The position numbers were made by a program, and so were the translations under genes. Below are positions 6,328-34,569 of a DNA stretch of 34,569 nt, piece after piece (the first letter of the stretch is position 1; each line of letters begins with the position of its first letter). The notes under the pieces are model-generated. The model was given only the letters and a program-made list of their open reading frames with translations. It was not told the DNA's origin and did not search any database. The stretch lies in the IMG/VR virus record IMGVR_UViG_3300041809_000328, positions 1 through 34,569 of that record; one strand, 5' to 3'. Source of the stretch: a virus.

Positions 6328-6762
6328 TTAAACCCCCGATCCCGTATAGAGGGAATAAGCCACGGAACCGCTGGTCAGCGCCACGCCGCAATCGTTTTTG
6401 ACAATTACATTGAGGTAAGGAGGCACCCACCCCAGCGCCGCCGCCACGCTGAATGCCTTGGTTTGTTGGTTCGCCGAATTGACCGGGACGGTGCCTAAGA
6501 AATACAAGTCAGACTCGTCGGTGGTTGTAGTCCCGCTAGTCGGCCCCGACGAGAAATTCGTGCCGTCCAGCGATTCCTGCGCGAATACCACTATCTGCTG
6601 GTCTCCTGACGTCACACCGTTTGGGAGTGCATTGACTTCCACAATCACATCCAGAGCATTGCTGGATGTGATTGTGCCAGCATTGACGTAGGTGCCGTTG
6701 GCTAGGGTTCCGAGCGAGCCGAGCGAAGTTTTAGTGCCGGGTATTGATGTGATTGTGGTCAT
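6328..6762 (-). CDS. tail-tip associated beta-rich protein (144 aa)
   Basis: Thr/Ser/Gly-rich and beta-strand-like throughout, with short hydrophobic stretches such as ALDVIVEVNAL and QQIVVFAQESLDG. It starts at ATG 6762, overlapping the fibre stop (TAATG). The composition and position between the fibre and lectin genes suggest a virion structural component. No specific family recognised. Confidence 0.65.
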   Translation of the reverse strand: MTTITSIPGTKTSLGSLGTLANGTYVNAGTITSSNALDVIVEVNALPNGVTSGDQQIVVFAQESLDGTNFSSGPTSGTTTTDESDLYFLGTVPVNSANQQTKAFSVAAALGWVPPYLNVIVKNDCGVALTSGSVAYSLYTGSGV

Positions 6763-8072
6763 TATCGTGTTCCTGCTAATGTGATTGCGATATTCGCCAG
6801 AGTAGAATCTGGCGTGTTGGGTGCGACAATCTCAAGCGTGTCGCCCGCCGAAAGTGTCGCCCCCCCGGAAAGCGTGAAGGTCGCCGTGGCGCTGGCCGTG
6901 AATACCACCGTCCCGACAGCCGAGCCATTGTGTTTGATTATGAAAGTCGCCGTCCCCGCCGAAGCGGTGAGTGCCACGCCGTGGGAGCCTGCCAATGCCG
7001 CCGGGAGGGTGACGGTGCGGTTGACGACATGGAACAACACAACCGCCGCTGCAATGGGCGAGCCGGGATAAAACGCCGCGATGTCGTAGGGCTGCGATCC
7101 GCCGCCGCCCCCGCCGGATGGCACCGACCAAGTTCCATCAGCTTTTAAGTATTTACCCGCCGCCGCCGTGCCAGCCGCCGGAGCCGGGACGGCCCCCTGG
7201 GTGCCGCCGCTCCCGGAATCGCCAACCATGGCCGGAAGATCCTCCGCGACGAGTTCACGGAATGCCGGGGCAGCCGCCGATCCGCTTGCAGGGCCAGCTA
7301 ATATTTGGTTGGCGGATTCGGTTGCCAGTGTGGCAGTCAATGTCCCGGAAGTGGTCACTGGCGAATCGGAAACCTCGAAAATCGAAGGCAGGGAAAGCCC
7401 GACGCTGTTCACCGTGCCGCCGGATCCGGCCGGGACATCCCAACTTGCATCTTCGCGCAGGAATTTCACCGCCCCCGCCGTTGCGCCGGGATCAGGGACT
7501 ATGCCCGCCGCGTGGTCCGCGCCGCTTGCGCCCATGACCGGAAGGTTTGCAACCGGGACAAAACCGCCTGCATCAAGACCGGCATACCCGTCCGGCTGGC
7601 CTTTGTTGGCCTGGTATTCGATATCCACTTCCGGCACGATCCGCTGGATCGTACCGAATGCCGAGCCAGTCCAGACTACTGAATAAATCGCATTGGCATT
7701 ATTCGTGTCATACGTCGAGCTACCTGTCGGGCTGATGTGAGTATAGTAAGTCCCTGCCGCCACCGAGGAAAAATCAAACGATGTGCCGCTTGAACTGACT
7801 ACGGTCAGCGATGCCGGAAGCCATGCGTAGCCGGGGGCGATGGTCAGCGTGGAACCCGAGCCGGTCGGCAAATAACTCCCCGCGCCAATGGTCGAAAGCT
7901 GTGTGCCAAACAACGCCTGTAGGGCCGATAATTGGGTGAGCGTGCCGGATGTAACCGACCCCATCTGTGAGATAAGCGTGTCAATCGCCGGGCCGATTGC
8001 GGCAAAATTGGCATTGAGCTTAGAAACGTAATTAGTGTCGCCGTTGGCGAACGTCAAAATTGGAGTAGTCAT
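6762..8072 (-). CDS. tail fibre protein with repeated modular C-terminus
   Basis: 436 residues. The N-terminus (MTTPILTFANGDTNYVSKLN) fits a phage tail-attachment segment. The middle has fibre-type motifs: YAGLDAGGFVPVANLP, AGAVKFLREDASWDVP and GKYLKADGTWSVP, which recur in trimeric fibres. A Gly-rich linker precedes a C-terminal ~110-residue domain (AAFYPGSPIAAAVVLFHV to LANIAITLAGTR). That domain is clearly homologous to the end of the 223-aa protein at 20959-21630. Likely host contact or adhesin carrier. Confidence 0.8.
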   Translation of the reverse strand: MTTPILTFANGDTNYVSKLNANFAAIGPAIDTLISQMGSVTSGTLTQLSALQALFGTQLSTIGAGSYLPTGSGSTLTIAPGYAWLPASLTVVSSSGTSFDFSSVAAGTYYTHISPTGSSTYDTNNANAIYSVVWTGSAFGTIQRIVPEVDIEYQANKGQPDGYAGLDAGGFVPVANLPVMGASGADHAAGIVPDPGATAGAVKFLREDASWDVPAGSGGTVNSVGLSLPSIFEVSDSPVTTSGTLTATLATESANQILAGPASGSAAAPAFRELVAEDLPAMVGDSGSGGTQGAVPAPAAGTAAAGKYLKADGTWSVPSGGGGGGSQPYDIAAFYPGSPIAAAVVLFHVVNRTVTLPAALAGSHGVALTASAGTATFIIKHNGSAVGTVVFTASATATFTLSGGATLSAGDTLEIVAPNTPDSTLANIAITLAGTR

Positions 8073-13076: not shown

Positions 13077-16000
13077 TTACCGGTTTGCATATATCCCGGT
13101 TATTTCCCGCTCCATCCAATCGCGTAGCGTCATATTGGCCGCGCCTTGGGTAAGCTGGACTTGCACTGCCCCGGATGATTGGCTGCTGGACGCTTGGATG
13201 TTCGATGACGTACCTGCCGTTGATGCTGCTCGAACGGTATTAGCGATATTTGCGGGCAGAACCATTTCGTTCGGGTGGAGCATGAACAAGCCGCCCTGCC
13301 CGGTCGTTTCAGCACCCTGAGCCGCATGGCCTAAAATCATCTCCGAATCGGCGGATGACAGCGCATCCGCCGACTCTCCCATGCCGCCTAAATCCGCAAT
13401 GGCACCACCCCCTGATGCATTTGAGCCGCCGAAATTGATCCCCAGCACACTTCCCAACAATGCACCCAGCAGGCTGCCGCCTGACGCGCCGCTTGATCCT
13501 GAACTTGAACCCGCCGCCGCCGCCGCGCCTGTTGCGGCACCCCCGAACAGGCTGCCCATTCCGCTTCCGCCGAATATCGAATCGCTGATTTTATTCGCAA
13601 CCAGCTTTGCGAGGTTATTTTGAATGGATTTGAAGAATGCTTCCATAGCCTGCCCTGCGGACTGGCTGCGTGTGATGATTGAGGCAAACGCATCGGCAAA
13701 CGATGATTGCATGTTTTTCGTCACATTCATGAAATCGGAGTCCGTGGTGGTTTTGATGGTTTGCAACTGTGTCTGCATTTTCACCAGGGCCGGGGTCAGC
13801 GAATCCGGGTTGCCCATCACCCCTTGCATTTCCTTGTATTTGTCGATCAATCCCTGCAAGATCGGGGTTTCGGACTTCTCGGCCTCTTCGATTTTTTGCC
13901 GCATCCCGTATTCGGAGAGCATCCCGGCATTATGCTGGTTGGTCGCCTCCATTTCCTTGGCCTGCATTTCGGCGATGGCCGCATCCCATGCCGCCTTGAT
14001 CTTGTCGATGTTTTCCTTGGCGGTTTCGACATTGATGAGTTTCGATGTCAGGTCCATTCCTTCCGTGCTACCGGTTTGCCTGAACTGGTCCATCAGCGGT
14101 TGATACTGCTCGGTGACTTTGGCCTTGGTGGCCGAGGTGTCGGTGCTGCCCTTGCCAGTTATTGCATCCAGCTTGGCCTTGGTCTCGTCCAGGATTTTTT
14201 GCAGTGCTTTGTGGGCCTGCCCGATTTTTGTGGCGTCCTCGATTTGTTTGATCGCACCCTGGTTGGATGTCTGGGCCATCTGCCCTTCAATGGTTTTGAT
14301 CTGCGTAAGGGTGGTGATGTATTCCGCCGATCCCTTGGTCTGTTCGGACAATTGCTGCTGATAGAGGGCCTTTTTCTTTTCCAACGCAGCCACGGTCACT
14401 GTGACTGACTGTTCGTCCAGGACTTTTTCACGGCTATAGTATTCGGACGCGCTGATTTCCTCGGCTTTGTAGGCCGCTTCGACTTCCGCCTTTTCCTTAG
14501 CCAATCCGCGCAGACGCGCCGATGCCTCTTCGTTGATTTCCTGCTCGGCCAGTTTGAGCTTCGCATCGGCGAGCTTGGAGGTTGAGCCCTCGTCCTCGAA
14601 CAGCGATGCCGGGGCCGATAGGCCGGGGGCTTCCGGTGCTTCTTTCTTTCCCATTCGGCCCATCACAGCCGGGACGTATTTTTGTGTCTCTGCGGGCATT
14701 TTCGACATCCAGTTGGTGCCGGCCGATTTGACGGCCTGGGTCACTCGGTCGGGCCCGGCATTGTAAGCCGCAAGGGCTTTTTGCAGGTCGCCGCCAAATT
14801 GTTTGAGCATGTCTGACAGGAAATGCGCCGCGCCGGATATTTCCTGGCCGGGGTCGAATCGATTGGTGACACCATATTGGGCGGCTGTAGATGGAATCAT
14901 TTGCATAAGCCCCGCTGCGCCTTTGGGGCTAACCACATCCGGGTTGCCGCCGCTTTCCTGGTGCATGATGGCTGGCAGCACGCCAGACGGCAATCCGTAG
15001 GACGATTCCGCCGCCGCCATTTGCAACGCAAACTTGCCGGTTTCCGTGGTGCTGGTCCTGATCACCTCGGCATTGATTTGCTGTAATGTTTGCAGCTTCT
15101 TTTGCAGAGATTCGATTTCCTTATCCAATTCGGCCTTACGGTCTTTCGCCCCCTGGATTTCCAACGGGTTGCTGGTTTTTCCCGGATAAGGTGCGATCCT
15201 TTTTTCCATTTCCAATTCCCCGGCCTTTTTCTGATCGAGCGCCGCCCTTGTTGCGTCTATTTCCGTGTTGGCATTCACTCCCTCGTGCCCTTTGCCCCCT
15301 TCCTGGGATTTGTAATAGGTTTCCCATGCGGTTGCCGCCCCATAGACAGCAGCGGTCAATGCGATTATCTGTGTGATCGGTCCACCCAAAATTGCGGCAA
15401 GCCCTGTCGATGCCGTGGCTGCTTCCAGCATGCCGGTGCCAAACTTGCCGATGGCCACGATGACTTTGCTTACTATTAATCCCTCCAACAGGGCCATCCC
15501 CGCATGTAACGCCGTGGCGGACTTTTCCACCCCGTCTATATTTGGGATGAGGGACGAAAAAGCGGATGACAGCGATTTTATCTGTGCGCCGATGACGGTG
15601 GCAGTGTCGCCGATTGCTTTGAGTGCGGCGACTATATCGTGGGAATGCGACGTGAACCCCTTCGCCATTTCGGTGATCACCGGCAAAAGCTGTTGACCTA
15701 TTTTCATGCGAATGGCCTCGAAAATGTCTTTGACTTCTTCGATGCTGCGCTTGTATTCACGCGCTACGCCGGGGTCCATGCTGATACCGAACTCTTTCAT
15801 GAAGCGGGTTGCATCCTCCACGGCCTCGGAGTTAAGCCGCGTCATGGCCAGCAAGTCTGCGGATCCGCGCTTGCTGATCGCCTTGGCAACAGCCTCCTGG
15901 TCAATCCCTTCTTTGTATTTTTTCACCACCCCAACTGCATTCATCACCACTTCGTTCAGCGACAACAAATTCCCTTTGTCGTCCTTGAACGCGACACCCC

Positions 16001-16400
16001 ATTTTTCCAGATTGGATTGGTTGGTGACGATCTCCCGCGTCAGTGCATTCGCGGCACCGGCAAAAGCCTCGGTCGGCACCCCGCTGGCTTTCATCGCCAT
16101 GGTGTAAGCCTGTGCCTCGGTCGCCGAAACACCCAATTGCCGCCCAAGTTTTCCTGCGGCAATCTCGGTGTCGGCCACTTCCCCGGTGAATTCCTTAGCG
16201 ATAAAGCCGCCAGTGAACAGCGCGGTCAGGCCCATCATCCCCGATTCGATCCTCTCGAACGCGCCGACGATGCCCTCTCCGCCGGATAGCACGGATTCCT
16301 TCATTTCCGCCATCTCGGCTTTCAAGGCAATCCCCGCCGCCTGGAATTCGTCGAATTTCGCGGATATTTTTACTTGGAGTTCTTCAGCCGTAGTCGCCAT
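13077..16400 (-). CDS. tape measure protein with lytic transglycosylase domain
   Basis: 1107 residues, the largest gene. Long helical and coiled segments flank a hydrophobic region around 300-350. A soluble lytic transglycosylase domain occupies about 465-595: SSYGLPSGVLPAIMHQESGG (catalytic Glu near 481), SPKGAAGLMQMIPSTAAQYG and AAYNAGPDRV. The C-terminus has Gly/Ser-rich low-complexity sequence (about 930-1000). It sets tail length and probably opens peptidoglycan during DNA entry. Start ATG 16400 has no clear ribosome-binding sequence. The 33 bp spanning this start (16390-16422) is copied exactly at 31351-31383. Confidence 0.92.
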   Translation of the reverse strand: MATTAEELQVKISAKFDEFQAAGIALKAEMAEMKESVLSGGEGIVGAFERIESGMMGLTALFTGGFIAKEFTGEVADTEIAAGKLGRQLGVSATEAQAYTMAMKASGVPTEAFAGAANALTREIVTNQSNLEKWGVAFKDDKGNLLSLNEVVMNAVGVVKKYKEGIDQEAVAKAISKRGSADLLAMTRLNSEAVEDATRFMKEFGISMDPGVAREYKRSIEEVKDIFEAIRMKIGQQLLPVITEMAKGFTSHSHDIVAALKAIGDTATVIGAQIKSLSSAFSSLIPNIDGVEKSATALHAGMALLEGLIVSKVIVAIGKFGTGMLEAATASTGLAAILGGPITQIIALTAAVYGAATAWETYYKSQEGGKGHEGVNANTEIDATRAALDQKKAGELEMEKRIAPYPGKTSNPLEIQGAKDRKAELDKEIESLQKKLQTLQQINAEVIRTSTTETGKFALQMAAAESSYGLPSGVLPAIMHQESGGNPDVVSPKGAAGLMQMIPSTAAQYGVTNRFDPGQEISGAAHFLSDMLKQFGGDLQKALAAYNAGPDRVTQAVKSAGTNWMSKMPAETQKYVPAVMGRMGKKEAPEAPGLSAPASLFEDEGSTSKLADAKLKLAEQEINEEASARLRGLAKEKAEVEAAYKAEEISASEYYSREKVLDEQSVTVTVAALEKKKALYQQQLSEQTKGSAEYITTLTQIKTIEGQMAQTSNQGAIKQIEDATKIGQAHKALQKILDETKAKLDAITGKGSTDTSATKAKVTEQYQPLMDQFRQTGSTEGMDLTSKLINVETAKENIDKIKAAWDAAIAEMQAKEMEATNQHNAGMLSEYGMRQKIEEAEKSETPILQGLIDKYKEMQGVMGNPDSLTPALVKMQTQLQTIKTTTDSDFMNVTKNMQSSFADAFASIITRSQSAGQAMEAFFKSIQNNLAKLVANKISDSIFGGSGMGSLFGGAATGAAAAAGSSSGSSGASGGSLLGALLGSVLGINFGGSNASGGGAIADLGGMGESADALSSADSEMILGHAAQGAETTGQGGLFMLHPNEMVLPANIANTVRAASTAGTSSNIQASSSQSSGAVQVQLTQGAANMTLRDWMEREITGIYANR

Positions 16401-16457: not shown

Positions 16458-16667
16458 TCATCGCCCGAAGCCGTCCAGGAAATCCCCCGCCTGCGCTTCC
16501 GGCTCCATTTGGCGGGGCTTGTAGGTGCCGAGGTAGGCTGCAACTGAATAGTGGGTCGGGGGCGCGACCTGCCATTCGGCCTGAATAGCCGCATACCTCG
16601 GCATAGTCACGGTGTCCAGGGTTTCGTCCCAGGTCCACCCGGTCGCGCAGACGATCTGCGCGACCAT
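16458..16667 (-). CDS. tail assembly chaperone T-like (possible frameshift extension)
   Basis: 69 residues from ATG 16667. The pattern VCATGWTWDETLDTVTMPRY, then AAIQAEWQVAPPTHYSVAAY, is typical of the second small protein before the tape measure in many siphoviruses (G/T pair). It lies in the -1 frame relative to the 111-aa gene. Its frame is open back across that gene's stop, so it could be made as a -1 frameshift extension through CCCC-TAG, or from its own ATG. Function: chaperone for the tape measure and tail tube. Confidence 0.7.
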   Translation of the reverse strand: MVAQIVCATGWTWDETLDTVTMPRYAAIQAEWQVAPPTHYSVAAYLGTYKPRQMEPEAQAGDFLDGFGR

Positions 16668-16678
16668 CGAATCAATGT

Positions 16679-17014
16679 CTAGGGGCTGCCCGCCCCCGAT
16701 GCGTTTCCCAAAGCCACCCCGCTGATACCTGCCATGGCGTTTAGCACCTCCTTGTAGTTTCCGGCATCGACCAGATCCAGCATGTCCTCTAAACTGACGG
16801 CCGGATAGTTGCGCTGCAACGCCATTGCGATGCCGTGCAAATTGGCCTCGAATATTTTGCGCTCGTCCCCTTTCGATTCCCTTATTTGATCATTAAGATC
16901 GTCAAGCTGGCGTAGAGTCAGCGGGGGCAATATCCATGCATAGCCGCCCATTTCAATCTTCGCGCCCTTGATAACGGGGGATCGCAACGATTTATTAATG
17001 TCCTCGATAGTCAT
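16679..17014 (-). CDS. tail assembly chaperone G-like
   Basis: 111 residues. It opens MTIEDINKSLRSPVIKGAKI, followed by GYAWILPPLTLRQLDDLNDQ, and ends Gly/Ala-rich (GVALGNASGAGSP). The size, position between tail tube and tape measure, and helical C-terminal half fit the first tail assembly chaperone. Normally it directly follows the tail tube gene; here a four-gene cassette (17024-19301) separates them. Confidence 0.7.
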   Translation of the reverse strand: MTIEDINKSLRSPVIKGAKIEMGGYAWILPPLTLRQLDDLNDQIRESKGDERKIFEANLHGIAMALQRNYPAVSLEDMLDLVDAGNYKEVLNAMAGISGVALGNASGAGSP

Positions 17015-17023
17015 TTTTAATTC

Positions 17024-17950
17024 CTAGACTGTGTTTGAATCTTCATTGCGGCTTCTGAAATACCGGTCGATGTCATACCTCAGCCGGGGTTTGTTGCCGG
17101 TCAGTTCCAAGACGCCAAAACTGTTTTTCTTGATGTCAGTCACCGGGTCGTAGTTGTTCGAGGTGAGTATCTGCCAGCGGTCCACATAGGCGCGGCGCTC
17201 CTTGGGGCCGTGCCATTGGTGCTCGATGGTACCCGGCACATAGCTGATATTCTGGCAGATGTGGGTTGTGGCCCGCTGCTGCCAGGCCATGACGGTGTTT
17301 TTGTAGTCCTGGCTGATGTTGCCGGGTAGTGATGCCTCGGCTTTGCCAACCAGTGACAACGCCATGTGGTGGTCGCCCGCGCCAAGAATGGCAATCTCAA
17401 TCATGCCGCCCAGCCAGTCGAAGGCTTGGCGGGTAGCTGCCCAAGCGAAGCCCGGATGGGGGAATGTGTAACCGTTTTCCCACTTGCCGCAGATAGGGCC
17501 GCCATCCCGGAAAACTTTGCAGAATGATGTGTGCGCTTGTAGATGTTCGCCGTCCGGCCCGAGGTCGTAGCAGTGCGCCCAGGGCTGAACCAACTGATAA
17601 AGCTGCAAGGCATGGACCGTTTCCGCCGCCCAATGGAGATGTCGAAACATAATGTCGGCATCGGCCCAGCATAAATATTTCCAATCTGGCGGCAGCCGCG
17701 ATATGCCGATATTGATGAGGTTTTCCTTGAGCCAGAGCATTGTGTGCGCCCTGACGTGGATGATGTTCACATTCGTATAGTCGGCATCGACAATCTGGAA
17801 CGGCCTCTCCCCGTATTCGCACTCGACCACAGTTAGCCGAACCCCGCTGTCCAGCATATGCGCGACAAACTTTTTGAATAATCTAATTCGTGAATGCCAG
17901 CGGATCGGGTTGTTGATCACCGTGACAACATCGAGCAGTTCGGCTCGCAT
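17024..17950 (-). CDS. GT-A type glycosyltransferase
   Basis: 308 residues from ATG 17950, with a strong ribosome-binding site (GAGGAG) in the end of the preceding 34-aa gene; a longer frame to 18151 lacks this and is rejected. The N-terminus, LLDVVTVINNPIRWHSRIRL, begins a Rossmann-like nucleotide-sugar fold. The metal-binding DxD motif is seen in YLCWADADIMF (D97, D99). Later GGPICGKWENGYTFPHPGFA and GAGDHHMAL resemble GT-A acceptor-site segments. It could glycosylate a virion protein or a host surface component; substrate unknown. It sits inside the tail operon, between the peptidase pair and the tail chaperones. Confidence 0.75.
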   Translation of the reverse strand: MRAELLDVVTVINNPIRWHSRIRLFKKFVAHMLDSGVRLTVVECEYGERPFQIVDADYTNVNIIHVRAHTMLWLKENLINIGISRLPPDWKYLCWADADIMFRHLHWAAETVHALQLYQLVQPWAHCYDLGPDGEHLQAHTSFCKVFRDGGPICGKWENGYTFPHPGFAWAATRQAFDWLGGMIEIAILGAGDHHMALSLVGKAEASLPGNISQDYKNTVMAWQQRATTHICQNISYVPGTIEHQWHGPKERRAYVDRWQILTSNNYDPVTDIKKNSFGVLELTGNKPRLRYDIDRYFRSRNEDSNTV

Positions 17951-17955
17951 TGCGT

Positions 17956-18060
17956 TTACTCCTCTTCCTTCGATGAAAACCAGTCGAACATGGCGATGAC
18001 CCCACAAATGGCGAACATCCCCAGCACGAACACCGCAATCGCAATCAGGTGGGCGCTCAT
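17956..18060 (-). CDS. 34-aa single-span membrane protein
   Basis: The sequence opens MSAHLIAIAVFVLGMFAICG, continues VIAMFDWF and ends SSKEEE. About 24 residues form one hydrophobic helix with an acidic C-terminus. ATG 18060 overlaps the peptidase stop as ATGA. Its own end carries the GAGGAG ribosome-binding site of the glycosyltransferase. It may be a small membrane anchor or regulator acting with the flanking peptidase or glycosyltransferase; function unknown. Confidence 0.65.
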   Translation of the reverse strand: MSAHLIAIAVFVLGMFAICGVIAMFDWFSSKEEE

Positions 18061-18767
18061 ACCAGATCCAGATCTTTTTGCAATGCCGCAAAATTGATTG
18101 TCTTTGAGTTTTTGAATTCTTGCGACAACACGGCCCAGGCTTCGTCGCCATAAACTTTAAACCAGCGATAAGTCATTCTCCGCACCTTGCCCCATGTGAC
18201 CACGTAAAAAAAGTCTTTGTCATAACCGACAATGGGGACTGCATGTCCACCCACAACCGGCTGCTCCAGCCAGCCCGGTGCCAAATGCCAAGGTTGGCCG
18301 TCGTTAAATTGAGTCTCGGCATTGGCCGGGACTTGAATGCCGACATAGGCAAGCCCGAATAATGCGATGGCCTGTTGGATCAGGGTTTGATTATGGATAT
18401 TGACCGGTGCGTAGCACACGATTTCGTTATCCCCAAAAAGTCCGGTTTTTTTCCAAATCGACAAGACATCCGATTCAACGAGCCCGGTGTCCTGTCCGCC
18501 GGTCAGCGCAAAATACTGGCCCTCGATTTCTGCCGTATCAGGGACTGGATCGTTAGTCCTCGCAAGCACATTCCAGCATTGCAGCGCGTGGGCCACGGCG
18601 GCGATGGTGCAATTGCCGTAAACGTCGTTGCCGTCCATCGGCCAGACGGGGACGGCGGAATAATTGTCAATCGTTGGCGGCGGGGGCGGTAAAGGGTATG
18701 TAAGGTAGGCTTCCAGCACTTTCAGTGCCTTCGGGAATATCGGATTTAGTTTGCCGTACTTTTTCAT
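18057..18767 (-). CDS. papain-like cysteine peptidase-fold protein
   Basis: 236 residues. A Pro-rich stretch (25-32) precedes the catalytic block WPMDGNDVYGNCTIAAVAHA, with the nucleophile Cys expected at C53. The histidine block is VVGGHAVPIVGYD (H175), followed by VVTWGK. Between them AYVGIQVPANAETQF matches the family. I recognise a widespread phage/bacterial family with a papain (C1-like) fold. Role unclear: possible virion protein processing, host-envelope cleavage, or a non-canonical lysis function. No signal peptide. It overlaps the membrane protein gene as ATGA. Confidence 0.8.
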   Translation of the reverse strand: MKKYGKLNPIFPKALKVLEAYLTYPLPPPPPTIDNYSAVPVWPMDGNDVYGNCTIAAVAHALQCWNVLARTNDPVPDTAEIEGQYFALTGGQDTGLVESDVLSIWKKTGLFGDNEIVCYAPVNIHNQTLIQQAIALFGLAYVGIQVPANAETQFNDGQPWHLAPGWLEQPVVGGHAVPIVGYDKDFFYVVTWGKVRRMTYRWFKVYGDEAWAVLSQEFKNSKTINFAALQKDLDLV

Positions 18768-18770
18768 GGT

Positions 18771-19301
18771 TCACTCGATCTTCAATGGTTGGAATTCAAT
18801 TTTTGACAGCCGTTTGACTCCTTTGAATGACGGGACGCGCTCAAGATAGGCAATGGCCCTCGCCCTGTTTGCCTTTACCCAAGTCGCTGGGATCCGGTAA
18901 AGTTCTGGCAGTTGGGCGGATGGGACGTATGCCGAGATTTTCATCACGGCGTCGATTGTCATATCCATCATGGCCTGCCGTCCAATCGGAAAAAATGCCT
19001 CGATTTTTGGTGGCGAGACGCCCTCGAAAACGAGGATGGCCACCGGTTTGGTCGCCTCATCCCATTTTTCGATCTCGTCTATGATAGCGAGCACCCTGAT
19101 TTTTTCACGCCGTGCGCTTTCCAATGTCTGGGCATTGAAAAAGGGGTGGAAGCCGCTCGCTATCCATTCATTGATCGTATGCAGAACCGAATGGACTACC
19201 ATCCCCGCCGCCGCTTCGCTGATGCCAAAAGCCTCCGCAATCTTGCCGGTTTCACAACCGGCAAGCGCGTTTTCAAAGATGAGCCGGTCCTGCGGGTTCA
19301 T
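18771..19301 (-). CDS. unknown protein with N-terminal helix-turn-helix-like segment
   Basis: 176 residues. Residues 1-45 (DRLIFENALAGCETGKIAEA, then FGISEAAAGMVVHSVL) look like a helix-turn-helix of the sigma/terminase-small type. The middle has ILVFEGVSPPKIEAFFPIGR, and the C-terminus is basic. It sits directly after the tail tube stop, where tail proteins are expected, and upstream of the peptidase. Either a tail assembly factor or a regulator; unresolved. Confidence 0.55.
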   Translation of the reverse strand: MNPQDRLIFENALAGCETGKIAEAFGISEAAAGMVVHSVLHTINEWIASGFHPFFNAQTLESARREKIRVLAIIDEIEKWDEATKPVAILVFEGVSPPKIEAFFPIGRQAMMDMTIDAVMKISAYVPSAQLPELYRIPATWVKANRARAIAYLERVPSFKGVKRLSKIEFQPLKIE

Positions 19302-20036
19302 TTAGGATGCTTGTGCAAAAGCCCAGGTGCCGATGTTGTTCGCATCGTCGGCAAACGCGGCAAAGCTGAAGTCAGGCTTGGTGAAATCCTCCAAAGCCGA
19401 CTGGATTGTGAACTTTGCGGCGATCGCCTTGTTTAGCGTTAAAACACTTTGCTGCGCATTATAAGTCTGCATGAATACGGCCTGGAACGCTGCAGCCACG
19501 CCCATCAACGCGTTTTTCATGGTAAGCGTCTCGCCCGCTGTCGCATCGCTATAAATGTAGGTGATCTGCACCGGCAGTCCCTCCATGTCGGTGAAAAATG
19601 TATAAACGCCAGCCGCCACTTGGTACTGCCCGGTCGCTAGTGTGCCAGACGATGAAATGCGGATCATTTCCGCGCCAGTTGCCGGGTTGATCACACCCAA
19701 GTCGGATGTCCAATTCGCGCTGTTTGCCACCGTCACGGCACTGGATGTCACGGTGCCGTTTTCAAGGTCGGCAACCGTTGACGTACCTGCCGCCAGTGTG
19801 GAGTTGGCGAAAAATACGCTGTTCAGGAATTGACCCGCTATTTGAGCGAATTTTCCAGACCCGTCGATTTTCACCGTGCCTCTAGCGGATGCCAGCGGGA
19901 ACTGATAAGCGCCAAACAAATTCACCGTGTTAGCGTTGAAGTCCACGCCGATCTGCTGGACCGCGCCGAAACGATTAGGGGTCGGGTTTGCCACGCCCGG
20001 AACTGTGTAAAGGTTACCTGCACCAAATGCATACAT
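19302..20036 (-). CDS. major tail tube protein
   Basis: 244 residues. Features typical of tail tubes: a beta-rich core with FGAVQQIGVDFNANTVNLFG, YQFPLASARGTVKIDGSGKF, AQIAGQFLNSVFF, then TTSSAVTV-like strands and ADGVYTF-like segments (AAGVYTFFTDMEGLPVQITY). It lies between neck/head-tail completion proteins and the tape-measure region, as expected. It would polymerise into the tail tube around the tape measure. Confidence 0.75.
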   Translation of the reverse strand: MYAFGAGNLYTVPGVANPTPNRFGAVQQIGVDFNANTVNLFGAYQFPLASARGTVKIDGSGKFAQIAGQFLNSVFFANSTLAAGTSTVADLENGTVTSSAVTVANSANWTSDLGVINPATGAEMIRISSSGTLATGQYQVAAGVYTFFTDMEGLPVQITYIYSDATAGETLTMKNALMGVAAAFQAVFMQTYNAQQSVLTLNKAIAAKFTIQSALEDFTKPDFSFAAFADDANNIGTWAFAQAS

Positions 20037-20069: not shown

Positions 20070-20501
20070 TCATACCGTCGCCAAAACCCTTACAGGAATT
20101 AGCGCTACTGTTTGCTGCCCCAGCAGCCCCTCGTCCGTTTCTATTTCGCCTTCGATCCAACAATGAGAGACTGCCTGGCCCAGCGTCAGCACATCGGTTG
20201 TGCTGTTGTCCGGCGCGAATGCCGCCTCAATCAGATCCAGCAATTCATTCTGGATCGTGGCCGGGACATCCTCGGGGTTGTCAGCATGGGCATAGAGCGC
20301 GAGTTCGTAACTGTAAACCCACTTCGGAGGAAGCCCACGGAGCTGCTCGACATATTGCCCGGTCTGCCGGATGAACAATGCCGGTTGCTGGCCGGGCGAG
20401 ACATCGGAAAAGTGTTTCCATTTCCGGCTTACCGTGACCAGCCCCGGAATGGATGCGACCAGGTTGTAAACCGCCTGAGCGATGTTTTCCCGGCTAGTCA
20501 C
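20070..20501 (-). CDS. tail completion / neck protein
   Basis: 143 residues. The sequence (MTSRENIAQAVYNLVASIPG, KWKHFSDVSPGQQPALFIRQ, then VYSYELALYAHADNP and LGQAVSHCWIEGEIETDEGL) fits the small tail-terminator/completion proteins (gpU or Gp17-like) that precede the tail tube. Its start overlaps the previous gene stop as ATGA. It probably caps the tail and joins it to the neck. Confidence 0.7.
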   Translation of the reverse strand: MTSRENIAQAVYNLVASIPGLVTVSRKWKHFSDVSPGQQPALFIRQTGQYVEQLRGLPPKWVYSYELALYAHADNPEDVPATIQNELLDLIEAAFAPDNSTTDVLTLGQAVSHCWIEGEIETDEGLLGQQTVALIPVRVLATV

Positions 20502-20959
20502 TGGTATTTAATCCTGCGCGTTAGAATGCTCATTACCCCGTCCAGTTTTCCTTCCATCCGTATCTGCATGGCTTTCGACTCATTTTTGTCATCCCTAATC
20601 TCAAGAATTTGGGCTTCGATATAGCGTATTCTTTCTTCGGTGATTGGCAATATTCCATGCCCGACGGTCGCTTTAAGCTCGCTGATGTTCGCGTACATCG
20701 AATTCGTCCTAGCTTCGCTTTTTACGTCAACCGATTCGATTTTCGATTCAAGTTTTAGCCCCCAGGCTATCCCGCCGATTAACGCCGACATGATGATCAT
20801 CATCGAAGCGAGGTCGCCCCATGTTTTCGGGGCGGCGGCGGCGAGCGGGCTTGGAGGGGGCGGCCTTGCATCTGCTCCGGCCCTGCGCTCGGTTCCGCTG
20901 CGCCGGTCGGTTCCGCTGCGCCTCTCCTTCTGCAGCCATGAGTCCGAAACTAGCGACAT
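20498..20959 (-). CDS. membrane protein with arginine-rich head and coiled coil
   Basis: 153 residues. The N-terminus has repeated RRSGTDRRSGTERR (about 12-26), produced by an 18-bp tandem duplication at 20890-20922. A hydrophobic segment spans about 47-66 (LASMMIIMSALIGGIAWGLK). The rest is a charged coiled coil ending RMEGKLDGVMSILTRR. This layout resembles XhlA/holin-like or other phage membrane accessory proteins. Start overlaps the preceding stop as TAATG. Its place among virion genes is unusual; lysis or membrane docking are possible. Confidence 0.55.
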   Translation of the reverse strand: MSLVSDSWLQKERRSGTDRRSGTERRAGADARPPPPSPLAAAAPKTWGDLASMMIIMSALIGGIAWGLKLESKIESVDVKSEARTNSMYANISELKATVGHGILPITEERIRYIEAQILEIRDDKNESKAMQIRMEGKLDGVMSILTRRIKYQ

Positions 20960-21630
20960 TACGAAAAAGTCCCCCTCAGGCTCATCGCCACGTTAGCCAG
21001 GCTCGCATCTACCGTGCCTGGGAAAACCGCTGTCAAGATATCGCCAGCCGCCAGCGAGAATGCCGCCGAAGCCGCGATGGCCGCCACGGCCCCCGAAGCC
21101 GCAAACGTCGCCGTCCCGACTGCCGATCCGTTTTTATTGATCGTGATCACCGAACCGGTTGCCGCCGCCGTCCCTGCCTTGCATTTCGATGTCCCAAGGC
21201 CGGAGGGGAACGAGCAAGCATCAGTGGCGATGAACATCAATAGAATTGCATTTGCCGCCGGTACGCCGGGATAAAACCCGCCGACTATCACCGGCCGGCC
21301 GGATATGTTCGATGCCGCCGCGCCCGGTTGCAGTGCCGATGCCGCCAGCGCACCTTGTGCCGCCGTCGCATAGCCGGAAAGCGCCGGGATGTTGGCCAAC
21401 GGCACTAGGCTGTTGGAATCTAGTGGGCAATAGCCGTTCGGCGCGCCCTTGTCCACAAGCAATTCCACGCCGGGAAGGGTTTCGCCCATAATCTCCCATC
21501 CAAGCGAAATAAACCCGGTCACATCCTCGTTGTTGATCTGCGCCTGGTTGTTCGCATCGACATCGTAGCGGATGCCGGATTGTCCTATCCCCCGGGCGGT
21601 GCCCGCCGGAGCCTGCATTAAAATAGTCAT
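20959..21630 (-). CDS. virion protein with fibre-type C-terminal domain
   Basis: 223 residues. The N-terminal half (about 1-105) contains a fibre-like LVDKGAPNGYCPLDSNSLVP with a Pro/Ala linker. The C-terminal ~110 residues (GGFYPGVPAANAILLMFIAT to ANVAMSLRGTFS) match the end of the 436-aa tail fibre closely, including INKNGSAVGTATFAASG and LAAGDILTAVFPGTVDASLA. This means a shared domain was duplicated between the head-proximal part of the operon and the tail fibre. It could be a head or neck decoration fibre. Confidence 0.7.
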   Translation of the reverse strand: MTILMQAPAGTARGIGQSGIRYDVDANNQAQINNEDVTGFISLGWEIMGETLPGVELLVDKGAPNGYCPLDSNSLVPLANIPALSGYATAAQGALAASALQPGAAASNISGRPVIVGGFYPGVPAANAILLMFIATDACSFPSGLGTSKCKAGTAAATGSVITINKNGSAVGTATFAASGAVAAIAASAAFSLAAGDILTAVFPGTVDASLANVAMSLRGTFS

Positions 21631-21640
21631 GGATATTGCC

Positions 21641-22363
21641 TCATTGTATAGTCAGCGTCATATCGTCGAACCATATAGTTCCGGGCCCTTGCGACTGGAA
21701 TTCTGTTGTGACGGCATAGGTTCCCACCGGCACCGAACCGCAAGCCTCCATCAATCCCCACACTGAGGCATTAGCCGCCGACGAGCCATGGACGGATTCC
21801 GCGACTGCCCCGCCGCGCGATTTGAACTGAAGCACCACACCGCCCAAAGCCCCTTTTGCATACACATAGGCGCAAAACTCCTGGCCTGCCGCAACGCCAT
21901 TTGTATTTGTCATCCATGCGGCGCTGGCAGTGGATTTGTTGATGATTTTCAGGCTGTGGGTAGGCGAATGGCTTTGCTGATTATCCCACGAATAAAAGGC
22001 ATTCAGGCCATTCGCATGGTAGCTGGCCCTGGGGTAATTCTCGAAATCATTGGTTGCCAAGATCGTATAGGGCGAGACCGTAAAAGTGACTGCCGATAAC
22101 CCGCTGAATAAATGTGGCGATACCGTTGTCAATTGGTAAAACGCCGATACTTCATGAGTCCCGGCCACCAGCGTTGATGGGATGACATAGTAGCAACTGC
22201 CGTCTGTTTTTGTCGGCGTGTTTACCGGTGCGCCTGTATCAATCGTTATCGTGCAGATGTTGGGTGTGGGAGTCCCGCCGGTATATGCCCCCGAGATCAC
22301 CTTCCATGCCTGTGACTGGCTGGAAAACAACACTAAAACCAGGAGGGCGACCAACCGTTTCAT
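21641..22363 (-). CDS. secreted or virion protein with signal peptide and jelly-roll domain
   Basis: 240 residues. The N-terminus is a Sec signal (MKRLVALLVLVLFSSQSQAW): n-region KR, hydrophobic core, AxA-type cleavage after residue 19. Residues about 45-95 look Ig/FN3-like (VAGTHEVSAFYQLTTV). The C-terminal ~140 residues (ATNDFENYPRASYHANGLNA, FYSWDNQQS, HSLKIINKSTASAAW) match a CBM/discoidin-like jelly roll, ending GTIWFDDMTLTIQ. A signal peptide on a gene inside the head-tail operon is unusual; it may be exported to the host periplasm or envelope rather than assembled. It overlaps the upstream gene as ATGA. Confidence 0.75.
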   Translation of the reverse strand: MKRLVALLVLVLFSSQSQAWKVISGAYTGGTPTPNICTITIDTGAPVNTPTKTDGSCYYVIPSTLVAGTHEVSAFYQLTTVSPHLFSGLSAVTFTVSPYTILATNDFENYPRASYHANGLNAFYSWDNQQSHSPTHSLKIINKSTASAAWMTNTNGVAAGQEFCAYVYAKGALGGVVLQFKSRGGAVAESVHGSSAANASVWGLMEACGSVPVGTYAVTTEFQSQGPGTIWFDDMTLTIQ

Positions 22364-26865: not shown

Positions 26866-29082
26866 TTATTCGCCTCTTAAAACTGGTGAAAGCGTACACC
26901 GGCAGTTGGGATGCGCCGGGGGCCACAGATCGCCGCTCTGAAACTCGTCTTCAAATCCAATCACACCCTGCTCTCCGTTCGCCGCGCAGTCTTCGCTCAC
27001 TAAATCGTCATTCGCCGTAACCCACTCCTTCCGGTCCACAAGCCCCGATTCTCGGTAGACGGCCACATTGCCTTGAATATCGGCAAACGCGCACTCGGTA
27101 CGCGCTATCATCATCGCCCGTTTCCCCCCGAACGCCGGGTCGCCAGTGACGGCCTGTCCGAACTTGGTTGCGCTCCATCCCTCTTGTTCGGCCTGGACAG
27201 TCAATTCTCTAAGCCGGTCCCGGGTCGTATCGCTGATGACCCATTTCGCATCCGGGTTGTCTATTACAGCGCCGTCTGGCATGACGCGCTTTCCTACCAG
27301 TTCCGCCCCGCGCTCGGTCGCATACTGAATGGCCTGCGGGTTCGCCAAGTCGAAGATCCTCTCGTCGTCGCTCACGCCGATCTGCACCACCGCCGCCTTC
27401 ACCCCGGCCTCCGCCGCTTTTTTCAATGCTGATGCAGCGGGCAGCACGAGGGCGGTCCAATCGAAATCTTGCAAGGCTCCCATGGCTGCCTGCGCCTGCT
27501 CGGGTAGAAATAGGTTTTCTGCGTCGTCGGCTTTGCCGATTTTTTGTACAGCCTTAACGATCTGTCTAGTTTGCTCTGCATACGCCTTTGCCAAAATGCC
27601 GGCCAATTCATTCCTTGCATCCCTCACAGACTTGCGATTCGGGTTGATGGGCTTGAGGGCTTTTTTTTTTCCAGCCTTGGCTATCTTCGCCGCCGGTTCC
27701 GGCTTCGGTTTCGCACCCGCGAAACTAGCCGCGCCGGTCCCTGGTTTGGTTTGGTCGGCGGTGAATTCTGGCAATCCAGGCTGCGGCGGCGGCTCGTCCG
27801 GTATGTATTGCGGGTCGATGCCTAGCCGATTGGCCACATAGGCCGGGTTGTAAACACCTGCATTGATGTAAATCTGGTCGATCTGGGCCTGCACCAAATG
27901 GTCAACTTCCTCGTCCTGAGTCCAGTCGAATTCGAGATCGGGCGCGTTGAAGTGCTTGTGTACGATGTAGTCCATCAAAGTTTTCACCCAGCGCTTGTGC
28001 GGCTCCAGGCCCTCCTCGGTCGCGGTTTCCTTGGCCGTCTGAGCGGTAGCTCGGTTGATTTCCTTGATGAATGGCTGCGGACTTACACTGAACGCGAAGC
28101 ACATGACGCGGGCCAGCCATTGCTCGGCTTCGCCGAATAGCTCGCCCTTGGTTATTTCGTGGACGTTGATGCCGCCCGGGATGAATTTCGCGTGGGATTT
28201 CGCTTTCAAATTCCCTTCCAGCAGCGAATCCCAATAATTTTGGAAGATCCGTATTTGCTCGGGAGTCCAGGTATCAGGCACCCCGATCAACGCCTCCGGG
28301 ATGTTCCCCTCGGTAAAGGTGTAAAGCTGCGTGATCTGTCTGCGGAGCGCAATGTTCACGCTCATGATGATCTGTTCCACCGGCCCGAACCCATAGACAT
28401 GCCCTGGCCGAGGGTTGCGGGGCCAGTAAATGATCTCGTCGCGGGTATAGTCAACCGCCGGAACGCCGTGAATGATCTGCTGGTAGGCCGGTGAGGGCGG
28501 AAGCGGGGATCGCCCGTAGAAGTCGATCAGTGGCGTGATGGTCGTACCGTCGATCACATCCAACGCGTAGACACCGCCGCCGCGTGTCGGCGTCGGGAAA
28601 ATGGTCGGCGCATCCAACACAATCATGTCTTCCATTACGAGTCTCAGCCATGCGCTCCACGAATGAAGCTGGTCGGGGTAGGCTAAAAAATCCATGATCT
28701 TGTCGCACCGCGCATCCGGGTCGCAGCCGTCCTTCGGCTTGATGCTCCATTCCAGCCCGCAAATCTGGTCTTTGCGGGTTTCGATCAGGAGGCGCAGGAG
28801 ATCGTAAGTGTCTGCCAGACCGCGCAATTGCGCAAACGAAACCGGCTCGGCGCTCCGTGGCGTGAAGCGCAGATTCTGCCCGGTCGGATAGTCGTAGACG
28901 CGGCCATGCGCCTGCTCCTGGGCTATGGGCGCAAGCGGCTGTCCGGGCGAAAACCACGAAGCGGGGATGATGTTGCGGACCATCCAGCGGCCAGTATTAG
29001 TGACAGAGTTTCCCACCACCCCGAAAAGAGTGTCAACGATGTTCTTGTCGTAGGGAGTCTGTTTTGGCTGGCTGTTAGACAT
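26866..29082 (-). CDS. portal protein fused to MuF-like head morphogenesis domain
   Basis: 738 residues. Residues about 1-430 are the portal: LLRLLIETRKDQICGLEWSI, YWPRNPRPGHVYGFGPVEQI, ALIGVPDTWTPEQIRIFQNY and NRATAQTAKETATEEGLEPH, the usual portal patterns. A Lys/Pro-rich linker (about 440-490, from a poly-T run near 27661) joins a MuF/SPP1 gp7-like domain (about 590-735) that ends WPPAHPNCRCTLSPVLRG. Portal and MuF are usually separate genes; here they are one polypeptide. Start ATG 29082 has only a weak ribosome-binding sequence and follows the promoter/operator region at 29083-29215. Confidence 0.85.
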   Translation of the reverse strand: MSNSQPKQTPYDKNIVDTLFGVVGNSVTNTGRWMVRNIIPASWFSPGQPLAPIAQEQAHGRVYDYPTGQNLRFTPRSAEPVSFAQLRGLADTYDLLRLLIETRKDQICGLEWSIKPKDGCDPDARCDKIMDFLAYPDQLHSWSAWLRLVMEDMIVLDAPTIFPTPTRGGGVYALDVIDGTTITPLIDFYGRSPLPPSPAYQQIIHGVPAVDYTRDEIIYWPRNPRPGHVYGFGPVEQIIMSVNIALRRQITQLYTFTEGNIPEALIGVPDTWTPEQIRIFQNYWDSLLEGNLKAKSHAKFIPGGINVHEITKGELFGEAEQWLARVMCFAFSVSPQPFIKEINRATAQTAKETATEEGLEPHKRWVKTLMDYIVHKHFNAPDLEFDWTQDEEVDHLVQAQIDQIYINAGVYNPAYVANRLGIDPQYIPDEPPPQPGLPEFTADQTKPGTGAASFAGAKPKPEPAAKIAKAGKKKALKPINPNRKSVRDARNELAGILAKAYAEQTRQIVKAVQKIGKADDAENLFLPEQAQAAMGALQDFDWTALVLPAASALKKAAEAGVKAAVVQIGVSDDERIFDLANPQAIQYATERGAELVGKRVMPDGAVIDNPDAKWVISDTTRDRLRELTVQAEQEGWSATKFGQAVTGDPAFGGKRAMMIARTECAFADIQGNVAVYRESGLVDRKEWVTANDDLVSEDCAANGEQGVIGFEDEFQSGDLWPPAHPNCRCTLSPVLRGE

Positions 29083-33999: not shown

Positions 34000-34569
34000 G
34001 CCTGCCCCCTGATGGTGGGTTGTTGACGATCCGGTTCTGCCAGCCCTTGCCGAACAGGAACCACTTGATTTCGCCGGGGCCGTCGCCCCGCCAGCGGTAG
34101 TCCTCCGCCGCCCGCCGCTTCACGTCGTCGATGATCAGATCGGCCAGCGGGTCCAGGCCGAGCTTCTTCCACATCACCCTGGAATCCTCCTCGCCGTCGC
34201 GGTATTCCTCGGGTATCGCCGCCCAGAACTCGTCGAAGCGGACAGTCGTGTGCTGCCCGTTCGGGGGTTCTTGGGTTTTCTTCCCGGCAGGGGGGGGTCG
34301 TCGAGGGAGTGCTCCGTCCCCAGTCACATCCAAGTTTCCGTGACCTACGACTTTCGGGTGTCCGGCCTCAGTGGCCTGCCGTGTCTGCAAAGCTCCGGTT
34401 TCTTCACCGGAATTAAAATTACCTTCACCCCCAAGGGGGGGGCCGCGCGAAGCGCCGCCTGCCTGGGAGGTTTTTTGCGATTTGCTCGCGCATGTGTCCC
34501 CCCCCCTTGGGGAAGGAGAAGGAGAAGGAGAAGGAGAAGGAGAAGGAGAAGGAGAAGGAGAAGGAGAAG
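33956..34569 (-). CDS. O-like replication initiator, C-terminal half (gene begins at the other contig end)
   Basis: From base 34569 leftward the frame encodes (Ser-Pro)n, a low-complexity linker rich in G/P/S/T including GGASRGPPLGGEGNF and PRRPPPAGKKTQEPPNGQ, and then the conserved C-terminal domain: VRFDEFWAAIPEEYRDGEED, LIIDDVKRRAAEDYRWRGDG, PGEIKWFLFGKGWQNRI. FxEFWAAxP followed by a KxxFxxxWLxxxxWxxR pattern is typical of phage O/DnaD-type replication proteins. An apparent start near 34390 is only a TTG inside the frame. Together with 496-1 this gives one protein of about 350 residues. Confidence 0.85.
   Translation of the reverse strand, partial: SPSPSPSPSPSPSPSPSPSPRGGDTCASKSQKTSQAGGASRGPPLGGEGNFNSGEETGALQTRQATEAGHPKVVGHGNLDVTGDGALPRRPPPAGKKTQEPPNGQHTTVRFDEFWAAIPEEYRDGEEDSRVMWKKLGLDPLADLIIDDVKRRAAEDYRWRGDGPGEIKWFLFGKGWQNRIVNNPPSGGRHGRFRLNGADIPFD
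34429..34512. repeat. 14-bp perfect inverted repeat next to the hexamer tract
   Basis: CCCCAAGGGGGGGG (34429-34442) is the reverse complement of CCCCCCCCTTGGGG (34499-34512), 56 bp apart. The right arm directly abuts the (AAGGAG)n tract. A further run of eight G lies at 34290-34297. All are inside the O-like gene. Confidence 0.85.
34513..34569. repeat. (AAGGAG)n hexanucleotide tract, right contig end
   Basis: 57 bases, identical to bases 1-57. It codes (Ser-Pro)n on the minus strand and supports joining the two ends. Confidence 0.95.

Follow-up and report, generated by a model that had tools for sequence, protein, structure and literature searches.

Predicted papain-like peptidase and glycosyltransferase genes inserted in a viral tail operon and recurring as a pair in other viruses

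In phages, both papain-like peptidases and glycosyltransferases usually count as accessory genes for which no explanation is offered. For the peptidases a described counterpart exists: the capture of xylellain-type enzymes by tailed phages has already been reported (PMC10380794). For the glycosyltransferases the closest described case is virion glycosylation in mycobacteriophages (Freeman et al. 2023, as cited in PMC10955285). As far as that citing account goes, the likeness to the present locus is a phage-coded glycosyltransferase that might modify virion proteins; there the matter was studied by experiment, whereas here it is approached from gene position. A third comparison is with phage morons. 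Like them, the genes described here are accessory genes lying between conserved genes and absent from relatives, but they have no recognised terminator of their own and are translationally coupled into the tail operon. No description of a peptidase–glycosyltransferase gene pair was found in the open-access literature. The stretch of DNA analysed, referred to here as the window, is a virus record of 34.6 kb (34,569 nt). Its minus-strand tail operon runs from the tube gene through genes for an HTH-like protein, a peptidase, a 34-aa membrane protein and a glycosyltransferase (GT) to two chaperone genes and the tape measure gene (Table 1).

Table 1. Features of the tail operon of the window, with the basis of each assignment.
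Feature	Position	Strand	Basis or remark
Tail tube protein	19302..20036	-	phrog_8234, E 2e-38; homologues in siphoviruses; left border of the site
HTH-like protein, 176 aa	18771..19301	-	Homologues directly downstream of the tube in 8 loci; tail-module resident, outside the insert
Papain-like (xylellain-type) cysteine peptidase, 236 aa (predicted)	18057..18767	-	AF2, PDB match, phrog_19005, conservation
Catalytic codons of the peptidase	C53 18611-18609; H175 18245-18243	-	Sequence
34-aa single-pass membrane protein, ATGA overlap with the peptidase gene	17956..18060	-	Sequence; an ORF of this kind with a strong TM segment has a chance probability of 5e-5
GT-A glycosyltransferase, 308 aa (predicted)	17024..17950	-	AF2, PDB matches, conservation
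Codons of the GT DxD motif, D97-D99	17662-17654	-	Sequence
AGGAG Shine-Dalgarno of the GT gene, within the last codons of the 34-aa gene	17959..17963	-	Sequence
Tail assembly chaperone 1	16679..17014	-	phrog_7947, E 1e-12; position same in 73 relatives; right border of the insert
Second, short chaperone-like ORF	16458..16667	-	Relatives have homologues following chaperone 1
Tape measure protein with internal lytic transglycosylase (SLT) domain	13077..16400	-	PF01464, E 1e-26, residues 463-562

An earlier note on this DNA had placed four minus-strand open reading frames between the tail tube and the first chaperone and had described the last three as tightly coupled; both the coordinates and the coupling are confirmed. 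Tube and HTH-like genes abut (0 nt), and 3 nt separate the latter from the peptidase gene. The peptidase and membrane-protein genes share a 4-nt ATGA overlap, 5 nt lead on to the GT gene, whose ribosome-binding site lies inside the 34-aa gene, and 9 nt remain before the chaperone. No terminator-like site was seen on the minus strand across the tube-to-chaperone block of genes. Could the 34-aa frame be a product of chance? It exactly fills the sole long spacer, and 3.8% of random spacers are likewise spanned by an ORF. Chance is very unlikely, because in only 0.005% of random spacers does a spanning ORF also have a strongly hydrophobic segment.

What exactly has been inserted? Tube and chaperone genes adjoin in three cultured relatives, being about 60 nt apart in Brevundimonas phage Polewnik, 6 nt apart in Acinetobacter phage 5W and overlapping by 4 nt in Pseudomonas phage KT1. 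Eighty related loci were then taken from IMG/VR, and the distance from tube end to chaperone end could be measured in the 73 that yielded both genes. It ranges from 285 to 1076 bp, against 2623 bp in the window, and the earlier remark that most siphoviruses have nothing at this place is true for these relatives. The distance has a median of 382 bp in relatives without an HTH-like gene and lies between 602 and 834 bp in those with one. Homologues of the HTH-like protein occupy the slot between tube and chaperone in eight of the 80 related viruses (L195, L196, L197, L202, L225, L228, L229 and L237), and the HTH-like gene is therefore a resident of the tail module; as a member of the cassette it was rejected. 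The peptidase, membrane-protein and GT genes, spanning 18767 to 17024, are absent from all 73 modules measured. On this comparison the insert proper consists of three genes and not of four, the boundary having been drawn one gene too wide. The insert is real once its boundary is corrected, and the pair of enzymes is more interesting than its place. Neither the GC nor the GC3 of the insert, in which a foreign base composition was sought, stands out.

Other junctions of tail operons also appear to take up accessory enzymes. Acinetobacter phage 5W carries a GDSL esterase between the chaperones and the tape measure (L006, 8405-9115). The window itself has a second block of extra genes (20498-22363) between the neck gene and the next tail gene, two genes that are adjacent in phage Polewnik. 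This block codes for a 240-aa protein with a signal peptide, a 223-aa protein with a tail-fibre-like C-terminus and a 153-aa membrane/coiled protein.

What kind of peptidase is it? The AlphaFold (AF2) model, built on 74 sequences, has a pLDDT of 96.0 and finds its best PDB match in xylellain from Xylella (3ois; Z 20.6, rmsd 2.7 over 208 aa), followed by procathepsins. Cathepsins score Z 15-18 against the model, which places it in the papain fold. With xylellain it shares the whole fold including the N-terminal segment, the catalytic Cys and His and the Trp of the Asn-Ser-Trp motif, although identity is only about 20%. By sequence it matches phrog_19005 over nearly the full length (E 4e-22), a PHROG with no assigned function. 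C53 and H175, corresponding to papain Cys25 and His159, are kept in 74/74 homologues, and the papain-like peptidase with this dyad that had been read from the sequence is thus upheld. W192, Y85, D93 and G95 are also invariant in this alignment. The enzyme departs from papain at two other positions. The place of papain Asn175 is taken by V190 in the window, with V, I, A or L in 59/74 homologues, N in 2/74 and D in 5/74, an equivalence set by the sequence motif (T-W192-G) and not by inspection of coordinates. At the place of the oxyanion Gln19 stands N47, a position that is Asn in 73/74. The peptidase therefore appears papain-like but not a canonical Cys-His-Asn C1A enzyme, and it is probably active, since the Cys-His dyad is fully conserved. 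No Pfam or NCBIfam endolysin family matched it in a comparison with muralytic families, and no plasmid match was found. A sequence search of the PDB returned chance matches only. Searches of viral contigs with single sequences of the peptidase, the GT or the tail tube gave no matches, and alignment-based searches were required.

The AF2 model of the GT (65 sequences, pLDDT 94.4) has a GT-A fold. As many as 829 of 1000 aligned PDB chains reach Z ≥ 8 against it and, among the matches listed, all are GT-A type enzymes. The top matches are tied across several families at Z of about 14-16, with none ahead: the WrtF fucosyltransferase, Leptospira 6p61, K4 chondroitin polymerase and ppGalNAc-T all share the GT-A core (residues about 1-273) with its DxD motif, but at an identity of 9-17%, and no single one stands out. 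A likeness to GT7 or GT27 was considered from the shape of the motifs; the fold search singled out no family. D97, D99, D193, H244, H247, R253, Y255 and R258 are invariant in 65/65 sequences, the DxD motif among them, and the GT-A assignment made earlier stands. The family has an invariant set of its own, comprising W73, KEN 75-77, D193, HxxHG 244-248 and RxYxxR 253-258, and is not covered by Pfam, PHROGs or NCBIfam; naming it would annotate more than 100 viral contigs.

Where are the relatives of this GT found? In the GT tree the window groups with L126, L009 and L015 (support 97), and these genes lie in tail-tip or lysis regions. In L009 the GT gene directly follows an NlpC/P60-like gene with an ATGA overlap, in L015 it is in the tail-hub region and in L126 it comes after tail genes; these neighbours are named from our own reading of the sequences. 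A common origin of the window and L126 as whole viruses, considered as their GTs are 60% identical, was rejected, the two having zero other genes in common. Further GT genes occur in the tail-tip region of L263, which has a related tail module, and in the neck region of a planctomycete prophage-like region, beside a holin-like gene (L185). Other relatives lie in early or replication regions (L028, L035, L047, L112). In Bryobacterales (Acidobacteriota; L176, L177, L178, L181 and L182) the GT gene is chromosomal, at a conserved place between housekeeping genes and without the peptidase. With relatives in such places, judging from gene position, tail glycosylation cannot be the job of the whole family. 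In a 205-kb virus (L125, 4992-10537), the peptidase–GT pair is at the head of a row of other glycosyltransferase-like genes.

Are the two enzymes together by more than accident? Eighty GT loci and 80 peptidase loci were collected independently, and both genes are held by seven of the former and five of the latter. Besides the window, ten loci from nine lineages carry the pair within 700 bp on the same strand (L036, L072, L078, L087, L112, L122, L123, L125, L126 and L175, the last a Planctomycetota assembly). The order is GT-peptidase in all but L125 and the window. The peptidases of L078 and L175 fall into a divergent subfamily and share about 20% identity with that of the window, so that the pairing spans two kinds of peptidase. 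When neighbouring genes were clustered, the peptidase was the commonest neighbour of the GT and vice versa. In whole records, the peptidase is present in 9/47 GT records (with several weak matches among them) and the GT in 7/50 peptidase records, whereas in the controls, 39 records that have a related tail tube, the peptidase was found in one and the GT in two. Pooled, a partner is present in 16/97 records selected by one gene versus 3/78 control searches (Fisher P 0.007), in a set that includes many fragmentary records and some near copies (L122/L123 and L077/L078) and whose controls are not matched for habitat. Taken alone, the GT in peptidase records does not differ significantly from the controls (P 0.29). 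Among the seven peptidase-selected records with both genes, the two lie no more than 700 bp apart in five (P about 7e-8 versus random placement). On the GT tree the paired state takes eight changes, at least three of them forced by well-supported branches, so pairing arose or was lost on several occasions. In the majority of GT records, as in the majority of peptidase records, the partner is missing.

The third gene behaves differently. No homologue of the 34-aa membrane protein was found, and nothing in the other pairs corresponds to its gene, save loosely a 73-aa protein with two TM segments in L126. The search for the three-gene set elsewhere that the earlier note had proposed thus bears out the peptidase and the GT, re-found as a pair in ten other loci, but not the membrane gene, and a functional unit of three or four genes does not hold, the HTH-like gene being in addition a resident of the tail module. 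Since the pair is re-found in unrelated phages, these comparisons suggest a recurring, undescribed accessory gene pair rather than a component of the tail. Its repeated occurrence, in two orders and with two peptidase subfamilies, leads to one testable question: which protein do both enzymes act on?

The explanation tentatively preferred here, with somewhat less than an even chance of being right, is a three-gene, moron-like insert in the tail operon whose GT would glycosylate a late or virion protein and whose peptidase would be a protease of the lysis phase or of late proteins. The three genes would have entered between the resident HTH-like gene and the chaperones, and they would be transcribed with the late genes, given their place in the tail operon. 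As no signal peptide or hydrophobic N-terminus was found among 87 peptidases and 86 GTs, both enzymes would act inside the cytoplasm as long as the membrane stays closed. The GT would take a host nucleotide-sugar and transfer the sugar to a late protein of the phage; the probable target is a virion protein from the same operon, such as one of the tail, and is favoured here since tail operons are where the nearest GTs lie. The peptidase may work at or near lysis, or may process a late protein. The closest GT relatives lie in tail operons, which agrees with the modification of virion or host-envelope proteins raised earlier, such proteins being putative substrates. If GTs of tail operons do glycosylate virions, virion glycosylation would not be limited to the mycobacteriophages, for which there are reports of it. 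A more specific proposal, rather unlikely in our judgement, is that peptidase and GT form a two-enzyme module peculiar to phages and share one polypeptide as their target, the peptidase cutting and the GT glycosylating, for example, a single late or virion protein; the system would be undescribed so far and repeatedly assembled in environmental phages.

Might the genes serve lysis instead? The peptidase would then be an endolysin or a lysis accessory cutting envelope proteins, the 34-aa protein a small holin and the GT a passenger. This is the main rival because the lysis genes of the window lack an assignment, and it is plausible if on balance doubtful. The window genes scanned yielded no endolysin, the SLT domain of the tape measure aside. 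Small membrane proteins occur more often close to the peptidase (20-24% at positions -2, -1 and +1) than far from it (9%), and an order of holin-like gene, Tat/Sec lipoprotein of 150-200 aa and papain-like peptidase recurs (L126, L140, L151, L139 and L275), possibly an undescribed type of lysis cassette. Yet the neighbours of the peptidase include, next to holins and lipoproteins, genuine endolysins of several types (Amidase_2, Amidase_3, M15, GH25 and phage lysozyme), so a muralytic role is unneeded there. Eight loci with the holin-like, lipoprotein and peptidase genes contain four endolysin-type matches, and the peptidase is therefore often not the sole lysis enzyme. For the same reason, its company of holins, lipoproteins and genuine endolysins, the earlier idea that it replaces a missing endolysin is possible but not favoured. 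Moreover, papain C1A enzymes cut proteins and are not known to act on peptidoglycan, and a location within the tail operon is uncommon for lysis genes.

Other proposals look away from the virion and from lysis. The GT could alter a glycan or protein of the host envelope and the peptidase trim surface proteins, for instance to exclude competing phages; in Komagataeibacter phages, relatives of the peptidase are indeed accessory genes located close to the integrase, and the GT of L125 stands in its row of glycosyltransferase-like genes. But no flippase or gtrA/gtrB-like partner adjoins, the GT has no membrane anchor and neither enzyme has a signal peptide, and we regard modification of the host surface as clearly unlikely. 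Distinctly improbable is a pair of effectors for counter-defence or host takeover, inactivating host proteins by glycosylation and proteolysis: the location of some pairs in early or replication regions (L112) and the spread of the GT family over unrelated phages would suit it, but a search against a library of anti-phage defence systems gave no match and the window genes sit in a late tail operon. Finally, two independent accessory genes may have come to lie side by side with no functional link, at junctions that accept other genes such as the 5W esterase and the block at 20498-22363. The ten other loci with two gene orders and two divergent peptidase subfamilies, and a closeness that random placement does not explain, make such a coincidence very improbable.

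Further features of the window lie outside the insert. The proteins encoded at 20959-21630 and 6762-8072 end in similar C-terminal domains of about 100 aa (FYPG...NGSAVGT...AGD...LANVA/LANIA), which look as if one receptor-binding tip had been duplicated at two places in the genome. A single ORF of 738 aa at 26866-29082 joins a portal protein to a MuF-like head morphogenesis domain. The window begins and ends (1-57 and 34513-34569) with 57 identical bases, an (AAGGAG)n run, while no terminal repeat is recorded for the genome; given these identical ends, the window may be a complete, circular genome opened within the repeat.
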